A stretch of DNA of 5,806 bases from Victivallales bacterium. Its GTDB lineage: Bacteria; Verrucomicrobiota; Lentisphaeria; Oligosphaerales; Oligosphaeraceae. This document shows positions 1,731 to 5,806 of this stretch, one piece after another. The notes under the pieces are model-generated. The model was not told the origin of the DNA and searched no databases. It saw only the letters and a list, made by a program, of their open reading frames with translations. The stretch spans positions 1-5,806 of the forward strand of contig JAGCTA010000079.1 of assembly GCA_017963875.1 (NCBI GenBank), written 5' to 3'. The position numbers and the translations under genes were made by a program. Position 1 is the stretch's first letter. Each line of letters begins with the position of its first letter.

Positions 1731-1750
1731 TCCTTTACTCATGAAAGGAA
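1731..1750 (+). promoter_or_regulatory. Shine-Dalgarno of the peptidase gene inside a small hairpin
   Basis: TCCTTT (1731-1736) and AAAGGA (1744-1749) are a perfect 6-bp inverted repeat around a 7-base loop. The 3' arm contains AAGGA (1745-1749), the only good ribosome binding site near the second gene, 9 bases before ATG 1759. An earlier in-frame ATG at 1741 lies in the loop and has no Shine-Dalgarno of its own, which decides the start in favour of 1759. No T-run follows the hairpin, so it is not a rho-independent terminator. When folded it would hide the ribosome site. The stem is short and A/T-rich, so the effect may be weak. Confidence 0.5.
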
Positions 1751-1758
1751 TTTGGAAA

Positions 1759-4700
1759 ATGAAACATCGTAGGAACATATTAGTAGCGTGTTTTGTTATG
1801 TTGCTGCTGATGACATGGATTGGGACCAGGTGGTTTGCTCTTTCACCTGAGAGAAATGTGGCGGAAACAGTCGCTGAAAGTCCAGTGGAAGTGCCAGAAG
1901 CCGAATCTCATGCGCAGAACTTTCCCAGTAAGGCAGTGCGTCAGATGCAGAAGAACACTGCAATGGCAAATGGTGGTTTTCTGGCCCGAGGAGGAAGTCA
2001 AAAGAACCATTTCGAACTGGTGTCGGCCACGCCGAGGTGCACACGCATTCTGTTTTCCCTAGACGATTATCGGATTAATTCCACGGAAATCAATGGCGTG
2101 AGGTTTTCTGTGCTTGACGTGCCTGGTGCCTGGTCAGGAAACCTGAAGGGCAAGCCACAGATTCCAATGTTCATGACACGCCTTGCCGTGCCAGTCTCAA
2201 AAAAGGCTCAATTGAACGTGCTGTCAGAAGACTGGGAGGAAATACCATGTGACGCGCCAGTGCCAGCGATGGGGCTGGTCAAGTGGAATGACAAAGCAGA
2301 GCCGCCTGTTCCCGATGAGGAAATCTATTCAGGAAAGGCTGTCTGGCCTAAGGCACTTGCCGTTCAGGGCAAGGCGTCGATGCTTAGGAGAACTTGTCTA
2401 TTGGGGGTAACAATAACGCCTATGGCATACGATTTTGGCCGGCATGTCCTGAAAGTATGCCGTCGTTGCGAAATAGAAGTAACTTGTGATGACGCAGAGA
2501 GTTCCGATTATGCCACGTTGTCTTCGTTTGCCGATTTCTCAAGATTGCAGACGCGCGGCGTCCTGAATAGCAGTTTGCTGCTCAGAGAGGATTCTTCGGA
2601 GAATTGCGCTGGGCGGATTTTGTTCATACTTCCAGATGGCTGGGCGGGCGATGCCGTGGAGGAGTATTTGGAGTGGAAAAACACCGTTGGATTTGAGACG
2701 CAGGTGAAAACATATCCTAGCGACACGGGGGCAGGTGCAGAGGGTATTTCAAAGACGGTCACGGCTGCATATAATGATTGGCGTTTGACGCATCTCGTGC
2801 TTGTCGGTAGGATTGATGAACTGCCTTCGGCAATCATGGCAACGAAGAAGAACAAACTCGACAACCCGTCGTCATACGATTCTTCCTTCATGGGTGATTT
2901 GGCTGTTTCCGATGTGCCGTACGCATTGCTTGAAGGAAAGGATGACTACCAGGACGTTTTTCTGAGCCGAATCCCTGTGCGGAGCGAGGCAGAACTGGCT
3001 GCTGTGCTCTTGAAACTGCGCATGTGCGAATCGGAGAGTTATGACGAGAACGTGGATGATTCATGGCGTCCGCGAGGCGTTTTCATCGGTGGAGATATAA
3101 GTGGTGAGGACTATTACCGAAAGAGTCAGGTGCCGCCTGAACTTCGTGACATGGATGATGCAGATGTCATTGAAATGGAAAGGCAACGGTTGATTTCAGA
3201 CGGCGGTTTCGCCGCCGACAGTTTCTCCTTTTACCGTTCCATGGCTTCTGCGGAACTGATTCAGGCAGGGCTGAATGTCGGTGCAGGGCTTTGTTCCTAT
3301 ATTGGTCATGGCTTGAATGATGGCTGGACGACAGGAAAGTATTATATCACTCATGCGAAGACGCTTTCAAATGGCATGAGGCTTCCGTTTGTATGCAGTT
3401 ATGCATGCCTGACTGGGAATTTCGGCTGCAATAAGGAGGCTAAGAAGAACATTTACAACCAGGTGCATTTTACTGATGACGGAGACTGTCTGGCGGAGGG
3501 GCTGCTTCGGTGCGAAACAGGCGGTGCGTGTGGAGTCTTGGCCGCAACTAATGATGTTTCCATCATCCCGCCGTATTACATGATGATGAAACTGGACGAT
3601 GATGTCATTGCGGCTGATTCTGATGAACGGCTGATGACTTTGGGGGCGTATTCTCTGGACGCCATTCTCGCAGGCATTGAATATTCGGAAACAACGACAT
3701 ACGCATGCGCTGGCATTGGAGACGAAATCGCCCGACAATTCCATCTGATTGGCGATTGTTCGTTGGCTGGAAGATTCAGAAGGCTCCAGCCCATGACCAT
3801 GAGGACAGCGCGGACGGACAGCGGGATTGAGGTGACCGTCCTTCGCGGAGCATCGCCAGTTCGAGCAGTCATTGATGAAAATATGAAACCCGTCGTCGGC
3901 ATCGCCGTCACCGTCGTTTGCCAGAAATCTGGTTTGATTCAACGCATGTTGACGGATTCCAATGGGAGCGCATCATTTGTTTTCAAAGAAGAAGAACTCG
4001 CAAGGCCCATGACTATCCATGCATACGACCCAATGAGCGGGTTGAAGACATGTATCCTCCAGCCTGTTGATTCAGATGGCGATGGAGAGATTTCTGACCA
4101 GGAACTTCTGGACTTTCTGGCGAAAACGACTTCAAAGGAATTGCGTAATGAGGCGATCATGCAGTGGAAGGAATCAGGGGCGGATGGGCCAGCACCAGCC
4201 TCCAGTCGTTCAGGAGTGTCTGTAAAAAGGGGCGACGACCAGCCCCAGGTTTCTGTCCCTAAGAAAAACGACGAGCCGTTTGACTGCCGTGCTAATCCGC
4301 ATGGAAAGGACAATTCTCTTCTTATTGCCAGTGAATCGGCTTCTCGCGGGACAGGTTATTGCACGTATGATGAGATGATTTCACGCATCGAGGCATGTTG
4401 GGTGAATCATTGGGACATCTGTCGGCCTGAATTCGTCGGGGAAAGCCTGAATGGACGGCAAATCCTTGGTATGCGAATCGGCAGGATGTGCGACAGCGAT
4501 TTCAATGCCGAGTTGCTGATTGCGGGTGGAATCCATGGTAATGAGCGGCCTGGCGTGGAGGTTTCACTACTTTTCGCGGAATGGCTGCTGGAAAAGTCTT
4601 CGTCAGACGATGAAGACGGAATACGCGTCAGGAATTTGTTGGACAGGATGACGCTATTTGTGATCCCCTGCATGAATCCAGACGGCATGGTCGCTGCTGC

Positions 4701-5806
4701 TGAGGCTGGAAGCAATTCGGAAGCATGGGAGGCGGCGCGCGAAAATGCCAACGGCATCGATTTGAACAGGTCCTATCCTGACGGCGTGGTAAATAGCACA
4801 TTAGGCCAATATGGCGCGGGGGCGAGTCTTTGTCTGGACGAATCGTTGGACCTGTCTCAGAGCGGCATGTTATGGTCAGGTGACAAGGTTCCTGAGACTG
4901 TCGCCTTTATGAAATGGTGCTGTGCCCATCGTCTGTCGGGTGCTGTTTTTCTCCATACAGGCTCCAGTGTTGTCTGCTACCCGTATGGGAACAACGCGGA
5001 GGGAAAACAAATGGAGACTGCCTGTCCAGACAGTGCCATGCTGAAATATCTGGCGAAAGGATATGTCGCCCATAGTACCATGATTGGCATGGTTGAACTT
5101 AATTCCGCCGCATGGTATCCTGTCCATGGAGAAGCCGCCGACTGGGTGTACAGATTTCTCGGTGTGCTGCCATTGACCGTTGAAATATCTCGCACAAAGG
5201 AACCTGCGGTTTCGCAATTGAACATCATTTTCAACCAACAACGCCCTGCATTGTTTTGGTGGTTGGAAGCCGCTTCGACTGGCGTTGGCGGGCGCGTGAA
5301 AACTCCCGCAGGGGATTCCATCGCGTTTGCGAAGGTCGCCTTGGGTGACGGCATGCCGAGTTATACGGATTCCACAGGGCGTTTTTTCATGACAGGCAGA
5401 AATGAAGAATCCTCGGTGATGATTTCATTCTGCGGATTTGACAATTATGTCGAGCAGATGACGCCGATGGAGGCGCAGATTGTCACGCTGTCTCCTTCGC
5501 CAGATGCCATTCAAGTCGCCTGTGGCGTGCCACGAGAACGTTATCTACCGAATTATCCAGAGGATTTGTCTGTTTCCGCACAGGATTCAAGGAATGTCCC
5601 AGCCGAATATATCATTCGCATATCTGGTGAGACCGCGCGCATATCGCGGGTGACAAGCGATGATGAGTGGCGCTGGAACAAGGATGGCAGCGCATCTGTG
5701 CTGTATGCAAAGTGCAACACAAGCAAAAATACGTTTGACTTGTCAATGATTCATTCGGACCGTCCGTTGAAAGACCATCGCATCCTTTTGTCATGCAGGA
5801 CAGTGT
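1759..5806 (+). CDS. Exported two-enzyme peptidase: C25 gingipain-like endopeptidase fused to M14 zinc carboxypeptidase (3' end outside window)
   Basis: One open frame of 1349 codons with no stop. Start 1759 has AAGGA 9 bases upstream; ATG 1741 would add six residues. Layout: MKHRR then a hydrophobic helix at 7-23 without a clear signal-peptidase site (probable membrane anchor or signal); acidic linker 30-60; C25 propeptide-like beta region about 85-241; C25 catalytic domain about 286-670, with catalytic H517 in YIGHG and C550 in SYACLTG, 33 residues apart as in gingipain RgpB (H211, C244), ending at the FHLIGDCSL motif; Ig-like beta domain about 678-769; EF-hand loop 771-782; polar Pro/Ser linker to about 865; M14 domain about 868-1155 with zinc ligands H926, E929 and H1066, plus R994, N1003, R1004, Y1120 and catalytic E1142; carboxypeptidase regulatory (transthyretin-like) domain about 1172-1240; unrecognised tail 1245-1349. 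PETVAFMKW and NSAAWYPV place the M14 part in the carboxypeptidase N/E/D branch. All active-site residues of both enzymes are present, so both are expected to work. Expected in the periplasm or at the surface; substrates unknown. About 35 cysteines. Probably co-transcribed with the PBP gene. Confidence 0.93.
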   Translation, partial: MKHRRNILVACFVMLLLMTWIGTRWFALSPERNVAETVAESPVEVPEAESHAQNFPSKAVRQMQKNTAMANGGFLARGGSQKNHFELVSATPRCTRILFSLDDYRINSTEINGVRFSVLDVPGAWSGNLKGKPQIPMFMTRLAVPVSKKAQLNVLSEDWEEIPCDAPVPAMGLVKWNDKAEPPVPDEEIYSGKAVWPKALAVQGKASMLRRTCLLGVTITPMAYDFGRHVLKVCRRCEIEVTCDDAESSDYATLSSFADFSRLQTRGVLNSSLLLREDSSENCAGRILFILPDGWAGDAVEEYLEWKNTVGFETQVKTYPSDTGAGAEGISKTVTAAYNDWRLTHLVLVGRIDELPSAIMATKKNKLDNPSSYDSSFMGDLAVSDVPYALLEGKDDYQDVFLSRIPVRSEAELAAVLLKLRMCESESYDENVDDSWRPRGVFIGGDISGEDYYRKSQVPPELRDMDDADVIEMERQRLISDGGFAADSFSFYRSMASAELIQAGLNVGAGLCSYIGHGLNDGWTTGKYYITHAKTLSNGMRLPFVCSYACLTGNFGCNKEAKKNIYNQVHFTDDGDCLAEGLLRCETGGACGVLAATNDVSIIPPYYMMMKLDDDVIAADSDERLMTLGAYSLDAILAGIEYSETTTYACAGIGDEIARQFHLIGDCSLAGRFRRLQPMTMRTARTDSGIEVTVLRGASPVRAVIDENMKPVVGIAVTVVCQKSGLIQRMLTDSNGSASFVFKEEELARPMTIHAYDPMSGLKTCILQPVDSDGDGEISDQELLDFLAKTTSKELRNEAIMQWKESGADGPAPASSRSGVSVKRGDDQPQVSVPKKNDEPFDCRANPHGKDNSLLIASESASRGTGYCTYDEMISRIEACWVNHWDICRPEFVGESLNGRQILGMRIGRMCDSDFNAELLIAGGIHGNERPGVEVSLLFAEWLLEKSSSDDEDGIRVRNLLDRMTLFVIPCMNPDGMVAAAEAGSNSEAWEAARENANGIDLNRSYPDGVVNSTLGQYGAGASLCLDESLDLSQSGMLWSGDKVPETVAFMKWCCAHRLSGAVFLHTGSSVVCYPYGNNAEGKQMETACPDSAMLKYLAKGYVAHSTMIGMVELNSAAWYPVHGEAADWVYRFLGVLPLTVEISRTKEPAVSQLNIIFNQQRPALFWWLEAASTGVGGRVKTPAGDSIAFAKVALGDGMPSYTDSTGRFFMTGRNEESSVMISFCGFDNYVEQMTPMEAQIVTLSPSPDAIQVACGVPRERYLPNYPEDLSVSAQDSRNVPAEYIIRISGETARISRVTSDDEWRWNKDGSASVLYAKCNTSKNTFDLSMIHSDRPLKDHRILLSCRTV

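Follow-up and report, generated by a model that had tools for sequence, protein, structure and literature searches.

A stretch of 5,806 nucleotides from a Victivallales bacterium (assembly GCA_017963875.1, contig JAGCTA010000079.1; here called the window) contains an open reading frame, P0001, in which one chain encodes an RgpB-type C25 cysteine endopeptidase with a propeptide and an M14 zinc carboxypeptidase. The reading that we favour, and in which we place about even confidence, is that the protein is an exported, self-processing precursor (zymogen) of two peptidases. Comparison with related fusions suggests that the residue just before the M14 domain matches the cut predicted for the C25 domain of the same chain, which is Arg in fusions with an Arg-gingipain (Rgp)-type C25 and Lys in fusions with a Kgp-type C25; this is a new observation. 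A wider proposal, which falls slightly short of even confidence, is that these proteins form a family of self-activating double peptidases, with an activation site of their own specificity (Arg in the RgpB-like, Lys in the Kgp-like members) and an M14 pocket that covaries with the kind of C25. The family would occur in three arrangements: Rgp-like C25 followed by M14, M14 followed by Kgp-like C25 (reversed), and Kgp-like C25 followed by M14.

Domain organization of the fusion protein

The P0001 frame, identified by a frame scan and Pfam, covers positions 1741-5805 of the forward strand, on which all features given below are located. It has 1355 codons and no internal stop, and its 3' end runs off the contig at 5805, so that the protein is incomplete. 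The relative P0002 extends 140 residues beyond the point that matches the cut end of P0001. Of the two candidate start codons, ATG 1741 and ATG 1759, the latter is more likely because it is preceded by AAAGGA at 1743-1748, as seen by eye. Residues are numbered from the first of them, which adds 6 to the numbers used in an earlier note on this DNA. A hydrophobic stretch after KHRR (1774-1836), also seen by eye in the translation, is a putative export signal or membrane anchor and makes P0001 a candidate for export or secretion.

The earlier note had described C25, Ig, EF-hand, M14 and regulatory domains in one secreted chain. Pfam finds Propeptide_C25 at residues 93-254 (2017-2502; 42 bits, cut-off 22), where a structure match agrees, Peptidase_C25 (PF01364) at residues 304-675 (133 bits, cut-off 23), Peptidase_M14 (PF00246) at residues 888-1161 (141.4 bits, cut-off 21.6) and the transthyretin-like CarboxypepD_reg at residues 1182-1245 (5284-5475; 32.6 bits, just over the cut-off of 32.3). 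The fusion of C25 and M14 in a single unbroken frame is thus confirmed. With alignment and fold taken into account, the catalytic domains span residues 289-675 for C25 (2605-3765) and 869-1161 for M14 (4345-5223). AlphaFold models fit RgpB with its pro-domain, as well as carboxypeptidases N, D and T, and the model of the propeptide superimposes on the RgpB pro-domain 4ief_A with a TM of 0.87 of the target. The EF-hand was recovered in part: the match at residues 776-795 is under the Pfam cut-off (16.4 versus 25.4 bits), but the EF-hand/dockerin-like calcium loop DSDGDGEISDQE (residues 777-788; 4069-4104) is conserved in relatives, where an alignment of 10 sequences shows no change at D777 and E788 and very little at D781 and G782. 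The Ig domain was not recovered, as its only trace is a sub-threshold bMG3 match at residues 714-762.

Catalytic residues and substrate pockets

The C25 half contains the catalytic residues named in the earlier note, here aligned as His523 (3307-3309; RgpB His211) and Cys556 (3406-3408; RgpB Cys244). According to passages of PMC9559808, Asp163 in RgpB anchors the charge of the Arg substrate and Trp284 forms the lid of the pocket. The residue corresponding to Asp163 is Asp473 (3157-3159), the predicted S1 charge anchor for Arg, a pairing taken from the family register, whereas the single-sequence alignment puts Asp163 four residues earlier. The lid Trp is replaced by Ile608 (3562-3564), a position that is also changed in the relative L158, Ile453 is placed at the position of Glu152, and the alignment reveals an insertion after the catalytic Cys. 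With the S1 Asp present and the Trp lid absent, we leave P0001 outside the Rgp gingipains; its function may nonetheless be Rgp-like.

The kind of C25 was called from the residue three positions after the Trp (Trp+3): proteins with an Asp at this site were classified as Kgp-type and all others as Rgp-type, P0001 and L158, which lack the Trp, being counted as Rgp-type by default. The C25 domain of L003, an Rgp-type fusion, matches RgpB at 1.8e-48 versus Kgp at 2.9e-12, and its residues paired with Asp163, Glu152 and Trp284 are all identical. The C25 domain of L005, a reversed fusion, is nearest to Kgp (2.9e-14 versus 8.8e-8 for RgpB), and an Asp is paired with residue 288 of the Kgp chain, the one at Trp+3. 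We infer that precursor numbering runs 228 ahead of chain numbering, which makes this residue Asp516; Asp516 of Kgp binds Lys, according to passages of PMC6426963. The Asp163 column is occupied by Asp in 27/27 forward (C25 before M14) Rgp-type domains and in 12/35 Kgp-type domains, and we dropped the idea that this residue is absent from the reversed kind.

The M14 half belongs to peptidase family M14 both by its match to PF00246 and by its full catalytic set (H932, E935, R1000, N1009, R1010, H1072, Y1126 and E1148), in which the alignment confirms all eight residues that had been proposed. The S1' pocket has Gly1083 (4987-4989) where carboxypeptidases N, M and D have Asp, Glu1131 (5131-5133) at the place of Asp260 in carboxypeptidase T, and Ala1133 at the position of the pocket Gln. 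We take Gly1083, which is located 11 residues after the catalytic His (His+11), to be position 207 of carboxypeptidase A, and the residues that confer basic specificity to be Asp192 and Gln257 of carboxypeptidase D. The Asp and Gln of the basic-specific M14B pocket are thus both replaced in P0001, and its pairs Y1126/E1131 (Tyr+5) and H1072/G1083 (His+11) are those of a carboxypeptidase T-like pocket. Furthermore, Tyr1126, Glu1131 and Glu1148 are spaced as Tyr255, Asp260 and Glu277 in carboxypeptidase T, which prefers C-terminal Leu, followed by Phe, Arg and Glu (passages of PMC6937156). Since Gly1083, Glu1131 and Ala1133 resemble the pocket of this enzyme, the comparison suggests broad trimming, possibly including Arg and Lys but not restricted to them.

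The pocket triplet is G/E/(P, A or G) in 23/23 intact Rgp-type fusions of the set, and D/(G, once S)/Q in 35/35 Kgp-type fusions, the latter as in carboxypeptidases N and D. The pocket of the fused M14 therefore goes with the kind of C25. These results bear on the suggestion in the earlier note that P0001 cuts after Lys or Arg and trims the same residues from the new ends. The C25 half is RgpB-like and retains Asp473, but its lid is changed and the M14 pocket is not strictly basic. Acidic residues are present in both pockets (Asp473 in S1, Glu1131 in S1'), but not at the S1' site of the basic-specificity Asp, so that a strict Lys/Arg carboxypeptidase like CPG70 of Porphyromonas gingivalis is not what the sequence predicts; among the fusions, a D/G/Q pocket was seen in those with a Kgp-like C25.

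The basic residue preceding the M14 domain

Residue 4 of the carboxypeptidase T chain aligns to residue 868 of P0001, which places Arg868 (4342-4344) near a mature M14 N-terminus and makes it a candidate processing site directly before the domain (ASR/GTGY). An Arg is located at positions -14 to -4 of the M14 start in 26/28 forward fusions, a set that includes P0002, in which the C25 was not seen, compared to 34/70 unfused M14 proteins (p 2.5e-5), where the density of Arg in this interval, 0.053, is about that of their background, 0.051. Within the 28 forward sequences, the density is higher at -3 to -12 (40/280) than at -13 to -60 (70/1344; p 6e-7). All 24 forward M14 domains with intact catalytic residues have an Arg at -12 to -3, which is missing from two of the four broken ones (p 0.016). 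The preceding residue also differs between the two kinds of C25: Lys is present in 30/35 Kgp-type and 1/27 Rgp-type fusions, and Arg in 25/27 Rgp-type fusions. Restricting the count to fusions that have just one of these residues gives 24 Arg and no Lys for the Rgp-type, versus 24 Lys and 2 Arg for the Kgp-type (p 2.7e-12).

Distribution and phylogeny of the fusions

C25 matches were identified in 45 of the 197 genomes of the class, 43 of them over the cut-off, and 58 distinct C25 frames were recovered with our own profile after the regions had been fetched, including L015 and L017 from other phyla. C25 and M14 are located in the same frame in 26 of these 58 frames, which represent 25 genomes. 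The order proposed for P0001 in the earlier note, C25 before M14, thus recurs in 22 proteins from 22 genomes, and the reversed order was found in four proteins from three genomes. Among the 22, the M14 domain is cut by the contig end in L153 and damaged in L125, L129 and L158. In two protein searches, each with about 8000 candidates scored, the first gave 24 proteins, eight of which contain both domains, and the second, started from the reversed type, recovered 37, of which 34 contain both (27 with M14 before C25, seven with a Kgp-like C25 before M14). Together, the searches yielded 42 proteins with both domains, some of them identical to loci in the class. Of the 27, three duplicate L005, L162 and L006 exactly or nearly so, and some others are named as Planctomycetota or Verrucomicrobia. 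Among the names used at the source are “carboxypeptidase D”, “succinylglutamate desuccinylase/aspartoacylase family protein” and “M14 family zinc carboxypeptidase”.

The M14 profile was also run on 387 genomes sampled from the phylum, with no more than five candidates scored in each, and 24 genomes matched at 1e-25. No C25-M14 fusion was seen outside the class in this sample, as all 13 genomes with coincident frames were already in the class set. An alignment scan of genome contigs confirmed 375 relatives, of which the best 80 were examined; a scan with the single protein gave eight pattern matches and no confirmed relative. A profile search, again with about 8000 candidates scored, returned eight proteins, none listed with M14, and the plasmid collection gave partial M14 matches only (eight records). 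Consistent with the remark in the earlier note that the fusion was not familiar as a described architecture, searches of the open-licence literature retrieved no paper describing it. C25 and M14 peptidases are listed for metagenome-assembled genomes of Thermoprofundales in PMC6461988, and neither this paper nor PMC13271334 names a fusion in the passages retrieved.

Before counting, we dropped P0003 (same M14 as L122), L153, the near or identical copies P0034, P0043 and P0044 (of L005, L162 and L006, respectively), and P0002 where the C25 was needed; P0005 and P0007, which duplicate L001 and L002 or are closely related to them, were kept out of the big sets. Degenerate M14 domains were excluded from the trees. 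In the careful M14 tree, P0001, P0002 and L158, the latter from genome G030, grouped at 100/98, the forward M14 domains clustered together with L166 (99/92), and the four reversed ones with each other (100/100). The widened M14 tree, inferred with a quick method, was poorly resolved and is by itself no proof of independent fusion.

Some of the relatives are half-dead copies: M14 catalytic residues are lost in P0008, L125, L129 and L158, and the C25 His is replaced by Asp in L122. In L166, the C25 and M14 halves (6344-8908 and 8912-10660, reverse complement) are separated by one in-frame TGA before the M14 start. P0002-P0010 (except P0007), L155, L168 and L174 share a C-terminal region marked by GWN or like motifs; some of these proteins are fusions, and others are relatives for which no M14 was detected. 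Unfused C25 genes adjoin M14 genes on the same strand in L017 (5868-11773) and L015 (9620-16698), which represent WOR-3 and Eisenbacteria metagenome-assembled genomes, an arrangement in line with cooperation of the two enzymes.

A proposed self-processing precursor and its alternatives

Under the favoured reading, C25 would cut after Arg, first releasing itself from its own propeptide at Arg282 (2584-2586), a candidate site that adjoins the mature start of RgpB in the alignment, and then cut between Arg868 and Gly869 in the same or a neighbouring molecule. The second cut would free the carboxypeptidase or switch it on, in the way that trypsin acts on pancreatic procarboxypeptidases, and the freed M14 would trim a broad range of new C-termini, including the Arg ends left by C25. 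The protein would probably serve to digest protein, outside the cell or in the periplasm, for uptake by the bacterium. The position of Arg868 suggests that the chain may be cut before M14, giving two released enzymes rather than one machine. CPG70, which in P. gingivalis is a carboxypeptidase of its own, removes Arg and Lys ends of self-processed gingipains (passages of PMC5445135), so that the fusion would unite steps known to cooperate.

Several results weigh against this reading and the wider proposal. The p-values treat relatives as independent, and the M14 tree contains a single phylogenetically independent comparison of the Arg and Lys types, with which a pairs test cannot reach significance. 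Lys also precedes M14 in three of six unfused sisters (L007, L008 and L011), and the site may therefore predate the fusion or serve processing in trans. Among the Kgp-type fusions, 8/35 have an Arg in the same interval and 5/35 lack the Lys, while L122 retains the Arg site despite the loss of its C25 His (GDG). The Asp163 column, being Asp in a third of the Kgp-type domains (12/35), is by itself no marker of Arg preference. In P0001, the Rgp assignment rests on the default and on overall similarity rather than on the Trp loop, and the Ile residues at both the Trp284 and Glu152 sites make a preference for Arg less certain. Finally, Arg is common at the junction of propeptide and C25 across the fusions, with no significant enrichment (p 0.13).

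The earlier note had instead proposed a permanently tethered machine, in which each C-terminus made by the endopeptidase is trimmed on the spot by the exopeptidase in the same chain. The single unbroken frame, the recurrence of the fusion in both domain orders and with both kinds of C25, and the conserved EF-hand-like loop between the domains are consistent with such a machine, but we consider it unlikely: a basic residue matching the kind of C25 is located right before M14, the fusions differ in the distance between C25 and M14 (165 to 782 residues), the P0001 pocket is not strictly basic, and each half decays alone in some relatives, which is evidence against obligatory coupling. That the C25 of P0001 has drifted to another specificity or to low activity, leaving M14 as the working part, is improbable. 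The replaced Trp284 and Glu152, the insertion after the catalytic Cys, and the loss of the Trp in the near relative L158, whose M14 is damaged, point in this direction, while the retention of His523, Cys556, Asp473 and the Arg site in an intact frame points away from it.

We find it still more doubtful that the fusion, rather than serving nutrition, matures surface proteins of the cell itself, in the way that PorU and CPG70 act on type IX cargo. Besides the N-terminal hydrophobic stretch, this idea draws on a distant similarity to the PorU and PorU2 profiles (28.9 and 21.7 bits), which is far under the cut-offs of 420 and 450, so that P0001 is not a member of the type IX sortase PorU (NCBIfam NF033707), and no conserved neighbour points to such a pathway, the upstream PBP2 gene being unmatched among the reading frames of the fetched loci, whose flanks are in many cases short. 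An assembly artefact joining two genes is refuted by independent copies. Although the contig is short and cut at both ends, with its first ~90 bases unlike the PBP2 gene of the nearest genome, the same-frame fusions recur in 25 class genomes and in the proteins from both searches, and P0002 carries the segment from the EF-hand through M14 on a separate contig with 57% identity to P0001.

The upstream gene and other peptidase fusions

The upstream gene (112-1728) encodes a PBP2-type transpeptidase according to domain searches, with its best match among the 197 class genomes in G030 (61% identity). This match, together with the grouping of L158 from the same genome with P0001, makes that class the most likely origin of the window. 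In positions 1-111 of the window, its frame has no ATG start and contains a TGA at 4-6, and similarity to the G030 protein begins near base 91, leaving the first ~90 bases of the contig unmatched, which may reflect a frameshift or an end artefact. We rejected PBP2 as a conserved partner of the fusion: the two are located on different contigs in G030, and the open reading frames of the fetched loci, a large number of them with short flanks, gave no PBP2 match (E 1e-10).

Other peptidase fusions were encountered among the relatives. P0026 (2098 amino acids; domains at 34-188, 236-561, 567-647 and 1414-1703) combines an Arg-gingipain-like C25, in which Rgp Asp163 and Trp284 are paired with identical residues, with a Porphyromonas-type peptidylarginine deiminase, and would couple cutting after Arg to citrullination of the new C-terminal Arg. 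P0062 and P0063 (~3440 amino acids) contain C25, M14, a leishmanolysin-like M8, and a subtilase S8 with a P-domain in one chain; the domains were taken from precomputed annotation, for P0062 together with our own domain analysis.

Comparison with known systems

The C25 half of P0001 is similar to the RgpB and RgpA gingipains of P. gingivalis in its propeptide, caspase-like C25 domain, His/Cys dyad and S1 Asp163, and RgpB is its best solved relative by both sequence and fold. It differs from them in being fused to a carboxypeptidase and in lacking the Trp284 lid and Glu152. Like P0001, CPG70 has an M14 carboxypeptidase domain, and it acts on gingipain-made ends (passages of PMC5445135). However, CPG70 is a separate and Arg/Lys-specific enzyme, and the P0001 pocket lacks the Asp of basic specificity, as judged from alignments to carboxypeptidases other than CPG70 itself.

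Carboxypeptidase T from Thermoactinomyces vulgaris shares with P0001 the acidic residue at Tyr+5 (Asp260 there, Glu1131 in P0001) and presumably a Gly at His+11, like Gly1083, but its M14 is not fused. By sequence, and slightly by fold (34.3 and 33.2 versus 31.7), the M14 of P0001 is closer to carboxypeptidases N and D than to T. Carboxypeptidases N, M and D, which we take to be subfamily M14B, have the highest similarity in sequence and fold and also have a transthyretin-like domain after M14. They differ from P0001 in having Asp at the site of Gly1083, and in N and duck D there is a Gln at the site of Ala1133.

If the proposal is correct, the fusions would allow a direct test of why gingipain-type endopeptidases are paired with C-terminal trimmers, in bacteria that we do not know as pathogens, and the natural variants (the Arg kind, the Lys kind and the half-dead copies) would provide a ready set for structure-function work. 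Pancreatic procarboxypeptidases are zymogens that trypsin opens by cutting behind a basic residue at the very front of the catalytic domain. In contrast to these, for which trypsin is a separate protein, the proposed activator of the P0001 carboxypeptidase is located in the same chain, and P0001 would thus represent a one-gene bacterial counterpart of the trypsin-procarboxypeptidase pair, in which the specificity of the protease and that of its site can both be read from the sequence.

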